Below, piece by piece: positions 16,854-28,531 of a stretch of DNA of 35,856 nucleotides (position 1 is the stretch's first letter; every line of letters begins with the position of its first letter). Source of the stretch: Magnetococcales bacterium (GTDB taxonomy: Bacteria > Pseudomonadota > Magnetococcia > Magnetococcales > UBA8363). Position numbers and translations under genes: made by a program. Location: contig JADGCQ010000033.1 of the NCBI GenBank assembly GCA_015228925.1, forward strand, positions 1 to 35,856, read 5' to 3'. Below the pieces are notes generated by a model that was not told the DNA's origin, did no database searches, and saw nothing but the letters and a program-made list of their open reading frames with translations.

Positions 16854-17068
16854 CGTTGCCAGTTCTCCATCAGTTCGGATTGGTGGATGGTTGCCCACTC
16901 GCGCACCAGGGCCATGGCTCGTTTCGGCAGTTTCCCTTCGATCATCTCCAGGGTTCGAATATCGAACACGGCTTCGTATTCGGCATAAAGGGCATGAAAG
17001 TGGGGCGGGGCATGGTCTCGCCGAAACATCTGGATCAGAATACCATAAAAATAGCTGATGGTTGGCAT
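16808..17068 (-). CDS. DUF4160 protein, copy A
   Basis: An 86-residue DUF4160 protein, opening MPTISYFYGILIQMF and followed by the signature DHAPPHFHALYAEYEAV with its conserved His-rich loop, then LEMIEGKLPKRAMALVREWA. The function is unknown. It overlaps the downstream DUF2442 gene by 46 bp, so the two proteins are made from one transcript. It is the second of two tandem copies of the pair. A sister copy lies at 17428-17688 and shares the MPTISYF start and the HAPPHFH loop. Confidence 0.85.
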   Translation of the reverse strand: MPTISYFYGILIQMFRRDHAPPHFHALYAEYEAVFDIRTLEMIEGKLPKRAMALVREWATIHQSELMENWQRCENKQPNFRIPSLP

Positions 17069-17158
17069 AGTCTCGGTTCACTGATCAACCACGGTTTCAA
17101 CTGTTGTGGACGCCTCACCGATTTGTTCTCTCCTCAGGCGTGTATTTTTCCCGCCATG

Positions 17159-17413
17159 TCAGGACAACACCCACTCGCCATGTGCCTTGATCGCGTCGTA
17201 CATGGCGTCTGGGGCCAGGTCAATTTCCCCGGGCCAGGAAACGAAACCATCCGTGACGGACAGACGCCTGAAGAATGCCGGATCTTTGAGTACCTCGAAA
17301 ACACCATATAAATGAGAGGGCAACAGACGTACTCGTCCAGAAAGGCCATCCGCGAAGGTCACGACAAATTCAAGATGGTCAATCACTTTGGCTTCCACAA
17401 TATTCCAGTACAT
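17159..17413 (-). CDS. DUF2442 protein, copy B
   Basis: An 84-residue DUF2442 protein starting MYWNIVEAKVIDHLEFVV. It lacks the longer N-terminal part of copy A, and ends FVSWPGEIDLAPDAMYDAI, almost the same as copy A. The ATG at 17413 has AGGAG just upstream (GGAGGAGCT). A GTG/ATG further out at 17431 is also in frame. It lies 14 bp downstream of its DUF4160 partner, where copy A instead overlaps its partner by 46 bp. The two copies have diverged in their N-terminal halves but not at the C-terminus. Confidence 0.85.
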   Translation of the reverse strand: MYWNIVEAKVIDHLEFVVTFADGLSGRVRLLPSHLYGVFEVLKDPAFFRRLSVTDGFVSWPGEIDLAPDAMYDAIKAHGEWVLS

Positions 17414-17427
17414 AGCTCCTCCTTGGG

Positions 17428-17688
17428 TCAACGTAGTGGTTCGATGGCATGGGGTGATTCATGTTGTTGACACAGTTCCCAATTGCGCAGCAATTCATCC
17501 TGGTGAAGTTCTGTCCAATCCAGTACCAGTTCGCGAGCGCGGCGTGGCAGATTGCCTTTGGTCACTTCCAACGCCTGAATATCAATAATGGCGGTGAATT
17601 CGCCGTAGGTGGCATGGAAGTGCGGCGGTGCATGGTCGTCCAGAAACATGCGAATAAAGATTCCAAAAAAGTAGCTGATTGTAGGCAT
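17428..17688 (-). CDS. DUF4160 protein, copy B
   Basis: An 86-residue DUF4160 protein with MPTISYFFGIFIRMF at the start and DHAPPHFHATYGEFTAI as the family signature, followed by LEVTKGNLPRRARELVLDW. The frame can be read from 17733, but the ATG at 17688 matches the start of copy A. It is the first gene of the two tandem pairs as transcribed. The promoter probably lies in the roughly 38-bp space to the pilE stop (or within it), because both pairs point left. Confidence 0.85.
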   Translation of the reverse strand: MPTISYFFGIFIRMFLDDHAPPHFHATYGEFTAIIDIQALEVTKGNLPRRARELVLDWTELHQDELLRNWELCQQHESPHAIEPLR

Positions 17689-17726
17689 AGTCTCGGAAAC
17701 GGGATCATATCCGTTTCTATAATATG

Positions 17727-24178: not shown

Positions 24179-25462
24179 TTAAGGCAGATCACCCGCCGAG
24201 TTGGCCGCATAAACAGTCAACAAGAGTTCTGTGTTATCGATCAGACGATATTTGGGCAACCGGCCAGAGTTCCTGAAACTTTCATCCAGGATGATCGGAA
24301 CCCCATCACCGCGTTTCTCCATGAAATACTGGCGCATCATTTCTTCGACACCTTCTTCGACCGGACAACGTGCCAACAACGTGGTCAACAGTTCGTTCCT
24401 GGTCAGTTGGCGCAGGGGCAAACTATCGATGGTGATGGTATTGGGAAGGGCACCAGGCGAATAGAGTTCGAGGCGATCATCAAACATGAAAAGTCGGATT
24501 TTGGAGCCATAAATGGAATAATCCCGGTGCGCAACGGCATTGACGACCGCCTCGAAGAGGGCACGAATGCTGAATTGGGGTATTTCAACCCGTCCTGGCT
24601 GTTTTCTGGCCGCCACACGCATGTTACGACGCACAAAGCGCATAGTCTGCCTGATTTGATCATCCAGGGGACCATGGATCTCCATGGCGTCCATCTGTTG
24701 ATTGGAATCCTGCCGTGATCCGCGATAACGGACGGCCAGGATGAAGGCATTCGGCATCCATTGGGCCGGTTTCCTGGAACACATCAACACGCCGGCAACG
24801 CTGGCCCGTTCGACCCCTTCATCGTCCGCTTTAAGCAGTCCAAGTTTTCGCAGGGTCGTCTCATCGACATCCACTCCAGAAATCGGTGAAAAAGCGGGAT
24901 TCCATGGATTTTTCAAAAAACGACGCAACAACGCATCATCCAGAGCGGACAGAGAGGTTCCAGGAACCGGTTGTTCGTCAAACCGAATGAGTTGGGCCTG
25001 ACTGCGCTGTTGCAGCAAACGGGACAACACCAGGGTATCCATCTCGCGTTTTGAACTGCCTTGGCGATGGAAATATCCTCCAGGGCTTTTATGGACAAAC
25101 AAACTGCGGGGAATCTCGACTTTCAAGACCGCCTTCGGCACCCCCATGGTATCCGGCAACGTCATACGCAGGGTGTGGAACCGGACTGGCGGCTTGATGC
25201 TATCATTGCACACTTCAAAGACGTGGCGTTCAACCGCATCGAGATGCCCTTGGGAAATACCAAGGATCTCGCGGGTTTTGTCATCCACGCCAAACACGAT
25301 CACGCCGCTGGCGGTGTTGGCAATCGCCGCGATTTCGTCCGCCAGATCGGAGCGTGTGGGTGCCTTGACCTTATTCCCCGTCATGACCACGGCTTTGAGT
25401 TCGAGGGAGCTATCCTCGCCCAATTGAATTTTCCGCAGCAGTTCTTCCGCGCCGTCAAACAC
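24179..25462 (-). CDS. Schlafen-AlbA-domain ATP-binding protein
   Basis: A 427-residue protein with two recognisable parts. An AlbA_2 (Schlafen-like) domain lies at about residues 15-140, with SSLELKAV and GVIVFGVDD as its core. A GHKL-type HATPase_c_4 segment lies at about 300-345, with EAVVNAVAHRDYS and YSPGALP. These COG2865-like proteins are transcription- or nucleic-acid-linked regulators often found in defence neighbourhoods; the enzymatic activity is unclear. The frame extends to 25642, but the GTG at 25462 is preceded by GGAGG at a 5-nt spacing and overlaps the stop of the upstream trlF gene by 8 nt (GTGTTTGA), so the two are translationally coupled. Confidence 0.85.
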   Translation of the reverse strand: MFDGAEELLRKIQLGEDSSLELKAVVMTGNKVKAPTRSDLADEIAAIANTASGVIVFGVDDKTREILGISQGHLDAVERHVFEVCNDSIKPPVRFHTLRMTLPDTMGVPKAVLKVEIPRSLFVHKSPGGYFHRQGSSKREMDTLVLSRLLQQRSQAQLIRFDEQPVPGTSLSALDDALLRRFLKNPWNPAFSPISGVDVDETTLRKLGLLKADDEGVERASVAGVLMCSRKPAQWMPNAFILAVRYRGSRQDSNQQMDAMEIHGPLDDQIRQTMRFVRRNMRVAARKQPGRVEIPQFSIRALFEAVVNAVAHRDYSIYGSKIRLFMFDDRLELYSPGALPNTITIDSLPLRQLTRNELLTTLLARCPVEEGVEEMMRQYFMEKRGDGVPIILDESFRNSGRLPKYRLIDNTELLLTVYAANSAGDLP

Positions 25463-28211
25463 GTCGGCCTCCGTGAGCAATGCGGCGATAGCGTCGTTCG
25501 AATGCCTCCTCGCCCCCTTCCATGATACGGCAGATTTCCTCGCGCACCGTTTGTTCTTGTAGGCTTCCGTCGCAGGTTCGGCAGGTTTGACCTTTGATGA
25601 CAGCCAAGGCCATGACCTGCTCGGCATCGCCATTGACCACAATGTTGGCGTTGTGCGTCACCACGATGACTTGACGGTGCTGTTTGATGGCCCTGAATTG
25701 GGTCACGATCAATTCAGATATCAAGTGATTGTCAAGATCATCTTCGGGCTGGTCCAGAATCAGCGGTTCCTCTCCATATGACAGGAGGAAGGCGAGCATG
25801 GCCGCCGTCTTTTGTCCTGGCGAACCTTCGTGTATGTTTTGAAGTCTGTTGCTGTCTCCAGAGGGGTGGTAACGCACATTCAAAGCATCCCCTGGAAACC
25901 AAAGATCCAGACGATCCAGACGCTCCGGCGGCAAGCCTTGTATTTTGGCAATGAATCGTTGATCTTTTGCGGTATAATGGCTGCTTTTCCCTGTTGCCGC
26001 AAACTCTCGGAGAACCTGCTTCAACTGGATGATGCCCTCCTCCGGTTTATCTGGCTTGATCATTCCCAGTAAACCATTTTGGCCCGGCGTGCCGATAACT
26101 TTGTCGAACTTTTCTGCATTACAGTCGATCAACTCCCGCAATTGGTTCTCGTACAGATCGGTATCCCCAAACCGCACCGCAGAGATTTGTACATACCGAT
26201 TATTGGTCAGAACCGTGGTGAGAAATTGACTGCGCATCTCTGTCAGAGATTGGCGTAACTGGGCAATATGTTTTAGTTTTTCCTCGGCCTGATGGCGGAC
26301 ATCCTCCTGGCTTTCTCGCCGTGACGCCATGTCGGAAAGTTGCCGCTCCAAGTTCTGGCGTTGTTGCAGAAGTTTTCCGAACTCATTGGGTTCCCCGGCT
26401 TGTTCCTCCCGAAGTTTGTTGCGCAAGGTTTCATAGTTTTCTTCTGCATCATGCAGGGCCTGTTTCCAGGTCGGGATAGACTGCGCAGATTGCCAACGTT
26501 GCAAACAAAAATCGGCATGGTTGGCCAATTTTTCGACGATACGGGCCATTTTCTCAAGGCGGTGCATGATGCGGGACGTTTCATTGACCACCTCGTGGTT
26601 GGAGGCATCCTCTGGCGCAAACAGGGTTGGATCGATGGAAGCGGGTGCTATCTCCTCGGCCATGGTCCGTAACTGGTCTCCCATGCCAGACCATGAGCCG
26701 ACCCAGGTCTCCAGGGAGTGCTGTTGCTGCTTGCGATGTTGATAATTCTTCAGAATCTCTGCGTGTTCTGCCTGTTCAAAAGCGGCCAGACGACGTTTCA
26801 CATCCAGCAGCTCGCCCTTGATGCGCTCCTCGTCTTTCAGCCCGGCAGAGATTTCCCGTTCCTTGGTACGCAAGGAGAGATAGGCCGATTCGGTTTCCTG
26901 CCAGCCTGTTTTCCAGTTTCGGTGTTCATCTCCAAGGGCGTTGTCGATCAGGTCAAGGAGTTTCCTGGGAGTTCTGGCAAACTCAAAAATCTGCTTTTGA
27001 CTAAAAATCCGAACAGGGAACCGGTCGGCAACAACCCCCTGAGTCGGTTGCCAGTCACCTTGGGTGTCCATTTCGGAAATAATTTCTTCTTTCCCTCCGG
27101 GGGTCCACAGAATGCGGTATCTGCCGTTATTCTTGTGGTAGGTGACCTCCAATATGGTATCGTTGGTCAACAAGCCGTCATCCTGGCGGGACTGGGAGAT
27201 TTTTCTGTATTTCTCAAAGTCTTTTTCCAGGTTGTCGTCGGGCCACTCTCCCCCCCGGCGCAGGGCCAACCGGAGAAATTCCACCAGGGTGGATTTGCCG
27301 GTGCCGCGCCCACCGATGAGGGCGTTCATCCATGGGTTGAATTTGCATACGTAGCGATTGGAGCGACCCATGTAAAAAGCTTTTTCCACAGTTAATTCCT
27401 CGATATACAAACGTCCGTGGTTATCATTTGGGTTGGTCTTTAGAGGAAACTGATCCGAACGTTTGATGGACATGTCCCCATCCAGCAACGCCAAGCGCAC
27501 CCCTTCCAGGGTGGGTTTTCCCATCTTGACCCAGGTGAAATGGCTTCCAGGAGAGCGTTCACCGCTGGGATGATGGGTGTCCGATCCCAGAATCTCGGCC
27601 CATCCTGGTTTGTTGTCATGATAGAGTTGGGGCTTGTTGTAATCAGGATCACGGATCTCCATGGCAAAGAGGTGTTTGCATTCAATCACCTGTGCCAGGG
27701 TCTGTCCGGTCAGTGTTGTGAATAGCCCATTGTCATTGTCCGCATGGGCGGGGAGGGCTATCCCACCTGCTTTGACAATCTCCTCGATAACCTCCACGGC
27801 ACCCTTGCGCGTGAGTCCGGCATCACCGCTCTGAGTATCAAGATCGACCGCTCCCAGTAGACGATCAATATCCGCTGTCTTTGTTGTATCGGGTTCAAAC
27901 AACGCCAACACATGGAAGCCGCCATGGACCGTCAGTTCGACGCCAGGGAACAGTATCAAAGGACGGAACCCATCCGGTTTTTCGGATTCCATCTGGAACA
28001 ATGCTTCCCGTAATATGTCGATCCACTTTCCCGTGTTGTGATCCGTGATGGCCACGCAATCCACTTCGGCGCACATGGTGTCCAGCAACCATTCCTCGGG
28101 GGTACGTTGCCGTAAAGTGGCCTGATCCGGTCCCTTACCGTAATCATACGATGCGGGCGTATGGGTATGAAAATCAAATTTCCACCAGCGGGCACCCGGC
28201 CATGGCCACAT
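25455..28211 (-). CDS. TrlF-type PHP-domain SMC-like ATPase
   Basis: A 918-residue protein in two parts. An N-terminal PHP phosphoesterase domain (about 1-270) shows the metal ligands HTH (15-17), ITDHN, PGVEL, PAHAD and LGSDTHH. A split ABC/SMC-type ATPase follows: Walker A GGRGTGKST at 300-308, a long coiled-coil middle rich in Glu, Arg and Gln (about 400-700), the signature SPGQKTAAML at about 797, Walker B LILDQPEDD at about 817 and VVTHNAN at about 850. This matches the TrlF family, which is discussed in the context of RNA damage and anti-phage conflict. The ATG at 28211 starts 5 nt after the PopZ-like stop; the frame runs on to 28343. It is coupled to the AlbA gene downstream. Confidence 0.87.
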   Translation of the reverse strand: MWPWPGARWWKFDFHTHTPASYDYGKGPDQATLRQRTPEEWLLDTMCAEVDCVAITDHNTGKWIDILREALFQMESEKPDGFRPLILFPGVELTVHGGFHVLALFEPDTTKTADIDRLLGAVDLDTQSGDAGLTRKGAVEVIEEIVKAGGIALPAHADNDNGLFTTLTGQTLAQVIECKHLFAMEIRDPDYNKPQLYHDNKPGWAEILGSDTHHPSGERSPGSHFTWVKMGKPTLEGVRLALLDGDMSIKRSDQFPLKTNPNDNHGRLYIEELTVEKAFYMGRSNRYVCKFNPWMNALIGGRGTGKSTLVEFLRLALRRGGEWPDDNLEKDFEKYRKISQSRQDDGLLTNDTILEVTYHKNNGRYRILWTPGGKEEIISEMDTQGDWQPTQGVVADRFPVRIFSQKQIFEFARTPRKLLDLIDNALGDEHRNWKTGWQETESAYLSLRTKEREISAGLKDEERIKGELLDVKRRLAAFEQAEHAEILKNYQHRKQQQHSLETWVGSWSGMGDQLRTMAEEIAPASIDPTLFAPEDASNHEVVNETSRIMHRLEKMARIVEKLANHADFCLQRWQSAQSIPTWKQALHDAEENYETLRNKLREEQAGEPNEFGKLLQQRQNLERQLSDMASRRESQEDVRHQAEEKLKHIAQLRQSLTEMRSQFLTTVLTNNRYVQISAVRFGDTDLYENQLRELIDCNAEKFDKVIGTPGQNGLLGMIKPDKPEEGIIQLKQVLREFAATGKSSHYTAKDQRFIAKIQGLPPERLDRLDLWFPGDALNVRYHPSGDSNRLQNIHEGSPGQKTAAMLAFLLSYGEEPLILDQPEDDLDNHLISELIVTQFRAIKQHRQVIVVTHNANIVVNGDAEQVMALAVIKGQTCRTCDGSLQEQTVREEICRIMEGGEEAFERRYRRIAHGGRRV

Positions 28212-28216
28212 CGTAT

Positions 28217-28531
28217 TCAACCCCCATCGCGGATACGGCGAATTTCTTCTTTGATCAGGGGTTCCGCGATGCCGGGAAGGGCTTCCGCCACCATGTCCCG
28301 AATCGTCCGGCGTGCCATGGATTCCATCCGTGGTTCCAACCAATCCCGAACCGCTTCCGCCAAGAGTTTGGGATCGACCCGTCCCAACTCTTCTTCACGC
28401 AAACGGGCAATCTCTTCCTGGATCAACGGTTCGGCAATCTTTGGCAACATCCCCCGCACCCACTGCCGCATCACCGCACGGGTTGATTCGGGGAAAAATG
28501 ATCGGGTTTGTCCATTCTGGTCATGATTCAT
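28217..28531 (-). CDS. Small PopZ/DUF2497-like helical protein
   Basis: A 104-residue charged helical protein that starts inside the proS stop (ATGA overlap). It has an internal repeat: LPKIAEPLIQEEIARLRE near residues 29-46 and LPGIAEPLIKEEIRRIRD near residues 85-102. Each resembles the C-terminal oligomerisation helix of PopZ/DUF2497 proteins (pattern WLDxNLPxIVExxVxxEIxRI). PopZ is a polar organising protein of alphaproteobacteria. This protein lacks the acidic, proline-rich N-terminal part, so I call it only PopZ-like. It is placed between proS and trlF with a 5-nt gap to the latter. Its role, and even the family assignment, is uncertain. Confidence 0.6.
   Translation of the reverse strand: MNHDQNGQTRSFFPESTRAVMRQWVRGMLPKIAEPLIQEEIARLREEELGRVDPKLLAEAVRDWLEPRMESMARRTIRDMVAEALPGIAEPLIKEEIRRIRDGG

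Follow-up and report, generated by a model that had tools for sequence, protein, structure and literature searches.

The window, one whole contig of 35,856 nucleotides (nt) from the 4.25 Mb genome of a Magnetococcales bacterium, carries two overlapping genes: trlF, coding for a TrlF/Ppl-type PHP-ABC ATPase, and a partner gene coding for a Schlafen protein with a GHKL ATPase domain. Since the pair travels together in at least 17 phyla, often in anti-virus gene clusters, TrlF and the Schlafen-GHKL protein probably form one anti-phage system. On balance, we favor its description as a horizontally mobile two-gene anti-phage module, in which TrlF would be the sensor and DNA nuclease and the partner an ATP-gated Schlafen RNase. 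Each half is known already, and the pair is best explained as a two-gene variant of Ppl defence. A description of this exact pair was not found in the open literature searched; an earlier mention may exist elsewhere. The generic annotations of such genes, ‘TrlF family ATPase’ and an orphan ‘ATP-binding / RNA-binding domain protein’, thus become one testable two-gene system.

The gene pair and its conservation

The pair is laid out as follows; the last three features were read directly from the sequence.

25455..28211, minus strand: trlF (TrlF/Ppl-type PHP-ABC ATPase), 918 residues, ATG at 28211 to TGA at 25455; PHP phosphoesterase/nuclease domain at residues ~1-260, ABC/SMC-type ATPase head, interrupted by a coiled coil, at ~268-880
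24179..25462, minus strand: partner gene, 427 residues, GTG at 25462 to TAA at 24179; Schlafen AlbA_2 domain at residues ~10-150, GHKL ATPase domain at ~260-418
25455..25462, minus strand: 8-nt overlap GTGTTTGA of the partner start and the TrlF stop, the translational coupling junction
25468..25472, minus strand: Shine-Dalgarno sequence GGAGG of the partner, within the 3' end of trlF and 5 nt ahead of the GTG
28221..28228, minus strand: G-rich ribosome-binding site for trlF that overlaps the DUF2497 gene at its end

A first-pass annotation of this DNA had described a TrlF-like PHP-ATPase coupled to a Schlafen-AlbA protein, with the TrlF stop overlapping the partner GTG by 8 nt behind a good ribosome site. 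Matches to NF045780, SLFN_AlbA_2 and HATPase_c_4 bear out the former statement, and the GGAGG 5 nt before the GTG agrees with the latter. The same annotation took the tight coupling to mean a two-gene system. We surveyed the linkage in the 80 best TrlF loci of 85,000 species genomes, calling a locus paired if the partner lay on the same strand no more than 100 nt away. In total, 57 loci were paired (spanning at least 17 phyla), 20 were solo and three were cut by a contig end. Because the order, strand and junction are the same in 57 of the 80 loci, the arrangement is not a product of chance, and the idea of a two-gene system is supported. In 22 loci the two genes share exactly 8 nt, from the partner start to the TrlF stop; in 29 the spacing is +1 to +4 nt. 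The shared letters usually read (A/G)TG-TTTGA and thereby also set the partner N-terminus as Met-Phe-Asp. Within Magnetococcales the partner is directly downstream of TrlF in all 20 loci found. These loci fall into three lineages, two of which have TrlF proteins only 23-38% identical to that of the window. Adjacency is thus conserved in unrelated genomes, and the partner did not prove to be unlinked in homologous loci, an outcome that the first-pass annotation had named as a refutation.

The two proteins also diverge in concert. Their distance matrices correlate with r=0.93 (71 pairs) or, once the divergent lineages are removed, with 0.85 (59 core pairs), values reached in 0 of 2000 permutations. 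On the TrlF tree the paired/solo label changes 12 times versus 27 in shuffles. Paired clades also give rise to solo forms. In a Thermoanaerobaculia genome (locus L116, 1905-11856) two TrlF-Schlafen units stand in tandem; the protein encoded after the second unit has two GHKL (HATPase_c_4) domains.

The two proteins

The window TrlF belongs to the TrlF family NF045780 (595.8 bits over residues 6-911; cut-off 350), which is defined on one protein, is silent on a partner and mixes paired and solo members. It also matches the PADLOC model of Ppl (PDLC02208; 3.8e-144), and is alike to Ppl over the full length, with the PHP and SMC-like ATPase domains and all motifs kept. However, at ~30% identity it scores 579.3 bits against the Ppl equivalog NF042955 (cut-off 1000), and is therefore a relative of Ppl rather than Ppl itself. 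Furthermore, at the E. coli Ppl locus examined (L039) the gene stands alone, whereas the window TrlF adjoins a Schlafen-GHKL gene. E. coli Ppl is reported to be a 3'-5' single-stranded DNA exonuclease, inhibited by nucleoside triphosphates (NTPs) and released by nucleotide depletion together with 3'-OH ends; as a single gene it protects against phage (PMC12904381). This DNA 3'-end exonuclease is the best mechanistic relative of TrlF, which amends the RNA damage and repair context assumed earlier. That context is unsupported rather than excluded: no TrlF-specific evidence for it and no TrlF paper were found, and a single RNA_ligase match among the neighbours of clade-2 and orphan loci was not located.

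The active sites of TrlF are intact. The PHP ligands (H15, H17, D57, H58, E92, H100, H156, D211 and H213) are kept in 68-69 of 69 TrlF homologues, and the ABC motifs (Walker, signature and H-loop) are invariant or nearly so in the 69 proteins. The AlphaFold2 (AF2) model, with a predicted local distance difference test score (pLDDT) of 90.7, matches the heads of SMC, Rad50 and Wadjet proteins in Foldseek. The ‘HTH’ for which mutants had been suggested can mean only the His-Thr-His motif of the PHP domain. A natural PHP-broken variant occurs at locus L051 (8286-10883; G039:C105), where an in-frame deletion has taken ~50 residues from a paired TrlF, and with them the last PHP metal motif (D-x-H); its partner retains the Schlafen triad.

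The partner matches two Pfam families, SLFN_AlbA_2 (1.9e-17) and HATPase_c_4 (9.8e-17), and no other. Profile searches found SLFN14 (3.5e-12) and SLFN13 (PDB 5yd0, 2.4e-11), and the Foldseek matches of its AF2 model (pLDDT 90.9) include 3lmm, SLFN14/13/5/11/12 and the SAMD9 tRNase domain; all three approaches thus identify the AlbA_2/SLFN fold. The putative catalytic triad E16/E21/D61 (Glu-x4-Glu ... Asp) aligns with E206, E211 and D249, the catalytic residues of human SLFN14. In the structure 9jr9, a SLFN14 E211A construct, the mutant Ala lies exactly opposite E21 of the partner. Among 51 partners the triad residues are kept in 51 (E16), 49 (E21) and 50 (D61), and GHKL residues E304, N308, D314, G337, G385 and G387 in every one. 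Compared with known Schlafen RNases (bacterial AlbA_2 proteins of defence loci, eukaryotic SLFN11/13/14 and the SAMD9 tRNase), the partner shares the core fold and the aligned triad, but differs by the GHKL fusion and by its dedicated TrlF companion. It also differs from the Schlafen/His-kinase-like ATPase/winged helix-turn-helix type found near BREX (bacteriophage exclusion) loci, in that it has no C-terminal winged helix-turn-helix: Pfam detected no helix-turn-helix domain, and the model ends after the GHKL domain. A role as a transcription regulator was rejected for this reason. PADLOC v2 holds no model of the partner and returned only weak pAgo-type matches. The earlier label ‘ATP-binding partner’ is incomplete; a more fitting name for the protein is a Schlafen-type RNase candidate that carries an ATP-binding switch.

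Same-clade Schlafen-GHKL genes are found elsewhere in a different setting. At loci L213 (6595-7887) and L214 (6245-7537) they follow a SNF2 helicase of 940-970 residues, with a 4-nt overlap, and are followed by a DNA methylase and a ResIII helicase, forming an operon that resembles restriction-modification (R-M) and lacks TrlF.

Mobility and defence neighbourhoods

Two further features delimit the pair in the window.

24193..28219, minus strand: limits of the mobile unit; by blastn against seven relatives, the DNA homology of the pair borders within ~25 nt of these positions, while the flanks differ
28217..28531, minus strand: DUF2497/PopZ-like gene (Pfam DUF2497), outside the system, directly upstream of the unit and after proS

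In the seven relatives homology to the window starts at 28206-28219 and ends at 24193-24216 regardless of the flanks, which differ in every relative. As the homology is confined to the pair, the pair is a self-contained mobile cassette of ~4 kb. It is present in three of eight genomes of the genus and in 17 of 48 of the order. The trlF start lies 5 nt past the stop of the DUF2497/PopZ-like gene, and strict conservation of the pair in the proS operon of all relatives was the other outcome that the first-pass annotation had named as a refutation. The nadK-folE2-proS-DUF2497 block keeps its synteny in six genomes of the genus (in one it is cut by a contig end) and is never followed by TrlF; the DUF2497 gene itself is conserved after proS where the pair is missing from that site. 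In two of the six (G006 and G007) the pair is on another contig. With the proS locus intact yet lacking the pair in six relatives, the pair is not part of a housekeeping operon.

The same annotation had proposed looking for enrichment near defence genes. In relatives the pairs do associate with BREX, R-M, Hma-like and Septu-type genes. One BREX operon (L049) has the order BrxC, PglXI, TrlF, partner, HEC-03B/NsnB-like ATPase, BrxHI and PglZ, and in another locus (L050) the pair is flanked by a PglXI fragment and BrxHI. Schlafen RNases near BREX have been proposed to be tRNA-cutting backup effectors (PMC12839542). Clade-2 pairs, located between PglX and BrxHI/PglZ, resemble such accessory effectors in position, whereas the window pair is outside BREX. 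Clade-3 neighbourhoods include Septu PtuA-type genes. Among 60 proteins encoded directly next to pairs in other phyla, the recurrent ones (some tallied under more than one name) are HmaB (4), HmaC, PglZ, DUF499, type III methyltransferases and ResIII helicases (3 each). On the IncC plasmid pNDM102337 the order is hsdR-TrlF-partner-hsdS-AAA-hsdM, beside a Tn7-like TnsD gene, and the pair is also found on Pseudomonas and Yersinia plasmids. In this divergent plasmid lineage (L034 5365-9152, L040, L041 and L215) Q takes the place of Schlafen E21, and the members checked have PHP D-x-K instead of D-x-H. A divergent lineage of the pair is carried on multidrug-resistance plasmids.

A phage-borne origin of the pair was considered and rejected: there was no DNA match to phages, in which TrlF is rare and mostly solo; one IMG/VR contig (L192) is paired. 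In a PM2-like Vibrio virus (L036, 1343-3959) the TrlF gene is split into two reading frames and adjoins an integrase.

In the window, the neighbours of the pair are nadK, folE2, proS and a type IV pilus cluster (nadK and folE2 were assigned from their sequences, without a family search). A scan for promoters gave seven versus 4.6 expected, an uninformative difference, and at the unit ends a search for attachment repeats gave only chance-level repeats. Locus L060 (1-12768; G008:C3), from another family of the order, has nadK, folE2 and a DUF2497-like gene at the contig end that also carries a clade-3 pair; the arrangement resembles that of the window and may reflect a shared integration neighbourhood. 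In G007 the DUF2497/PopZ-like gene after proS is duplicated (L069, 8722-8979 and 9799-10137). A stretch present in two copies at window positions 16935-17694, also found in G021 (L061 5758-5933, 70-81% identical), adjoins a ComP-like pilin gene, and the copies are perhaps pilin paralogues; the search for the pilin gene in relatives gave no matches.

Proposed mechanism and competing explanations

An anti-phage function of the pair is strongly inferred; the RNase activity of the partner, its physical complex with TrlF and its gating by ATP are putative. In the module that we propose, TrlF would serve as both sensor and DNA nuclease. Judged from its homology to E. coli Ppl, the PHP domain would act as a 3'-5' single-stranded DNA exonuclease blocked by bound NTPs, and the SMC/Rad50-like head would bind DNA ends. 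Infection would bring nucleotide depletion and exposed 3'-OH ends, releasing the exonuclease. The GHKL domain probably keeps the partner switched off as long as ATP is abundant or the partner remains bound to TrlF. Once activated, the partner would cut tRNA or rRNA and translation would stop, with TrlF meanwhile degrading phage DNA. We infer this joining of Ppl-type and Schlafen-type mechanisms. The logic is analogous to that of PARIS, where an ABC-ATPase sensor (AriA, OLD/ABC) and a separate translation-stopping nuclease (AriB, Toprim) are encoded in a tight operon. The likeness is one of working principle only, as the window pair has no Toprim/AriB, TrlF has its own PHP nuclease and the partner fold differs. 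It is possible, and we suggest it tentatively, that the pair is a dual DNase-RNase immune module, with a single ATPase that detects both DNA 3' ends and the depletion of nucleotides and then licenses a Schlafen tRNase gated by ATP. If so, a single danger signal would trigger both phage-DNA degradation and translation arrest. Such natural coupling of a DNA-end/NTP sensor to a Schlafen RNase would be a bacterial counterpart of the human SLFN11-type link between replication stress and tRNA cleavage.

Several observations weigh against this module. The family search of window proteins found no defence genes around the pair, and BrxC, PglX and PglZ are absent there. AlbA_2-GHKL proteins unlinked to TrlF conserve the Schlafen triad equally; its conservation is thus no proof of RNase activity in the pair, and we dropped the notion of pair-specific conservation. 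Clade-3 pairs of Magnetococcales lack D61 and their PHP domain ends in D-x-K, and pairs of the IncC/Pseudomonas type combine D-x-K with the E21 to Q change. Because these two lineages degenerate the Schlafen catalytic residues yet keep GHKL, while unlinked Schlafen-GHKL proteins keep the triad, a rival in which the partner is a regulator and not a nuclease stays serious, if rather unlikely. The partner would then set the threshold at which the TrlF exonuclease acts, much as an immunity or antitoxin protein would, either as an inhibitor or activator that senses ATP or as an autoregulatory protein that binds nucleic acids. The GHKL motifs are indeed the most invariant part of the partner, the 8-nt coupling suits a fixed stoichiometry, and solo TrlF can work without a partner (Ppl, PMC12904381). 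On the other hand, the main lineage keeps the triad residues in 49-51 of 51 proteins across 17 phyla, beyond the need of a pure scaffold. The lack of a helix-turn-helix domain speaks against a transcriptional role, and the occurrence of the partner without TrlF, beside the SNF2 helicase and DNA methylase, is also at odds with this rival.

A toxin-antitoxin or plasmid-addiction pair that protects only incidentally or not at all would account for the overlapping two-gene layout and for the frequency of the pair on conjugative plasmids. It is very improbable, given that solo copies are stable in many genomes, that both proteins bear enzyme active sites with neither resembling a labile antitoxin, and that the pair clusters inside BREX and R-M loci. 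Less probable still is a housekeeping unit for DNA/RNA repair that belongs to the proS operon: the location of the window pair just behind proS-DUF2497 suits it, but the synteny comparison with the six same-genus relatives, two of which carry the pair elsewhere, refutes it. More credible than either, though quite unlikely, are two independent defence genes in one operon, TrlF acting as a solo Ppl and the Schlafen-GHKL protein as a separate backup effector, the role named for Schlafen RNases in BREX loci (PMC12839542). Solo TrlF/Ppl proteins do exist (20 of the 80 loci), as do Schlafen-GHKL genes without TrlF (G260 and G371). Yet order and strand are strictly kept across phyla, as is the 8-nt coupling, and this, together with the strong co-variation of distances, exceeds what a shared neighbourhood usually gives, and the few paired/solo changes on the tree argue likewise against independence. 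Near-identical solo forms occur on E. coli plasmids. A TrlF from an IncF plasmid (L037), 90% identical to the paired TrlF of Thauera terpenica (L133), has no partner, which means that the partner is not always needed. Homology to the Thauera locus stops 9 nt past the TrlF stop, and these two loci provide a natural experiment on near-identical TrlF proteins with and without the Schlafen-GHKL protein.

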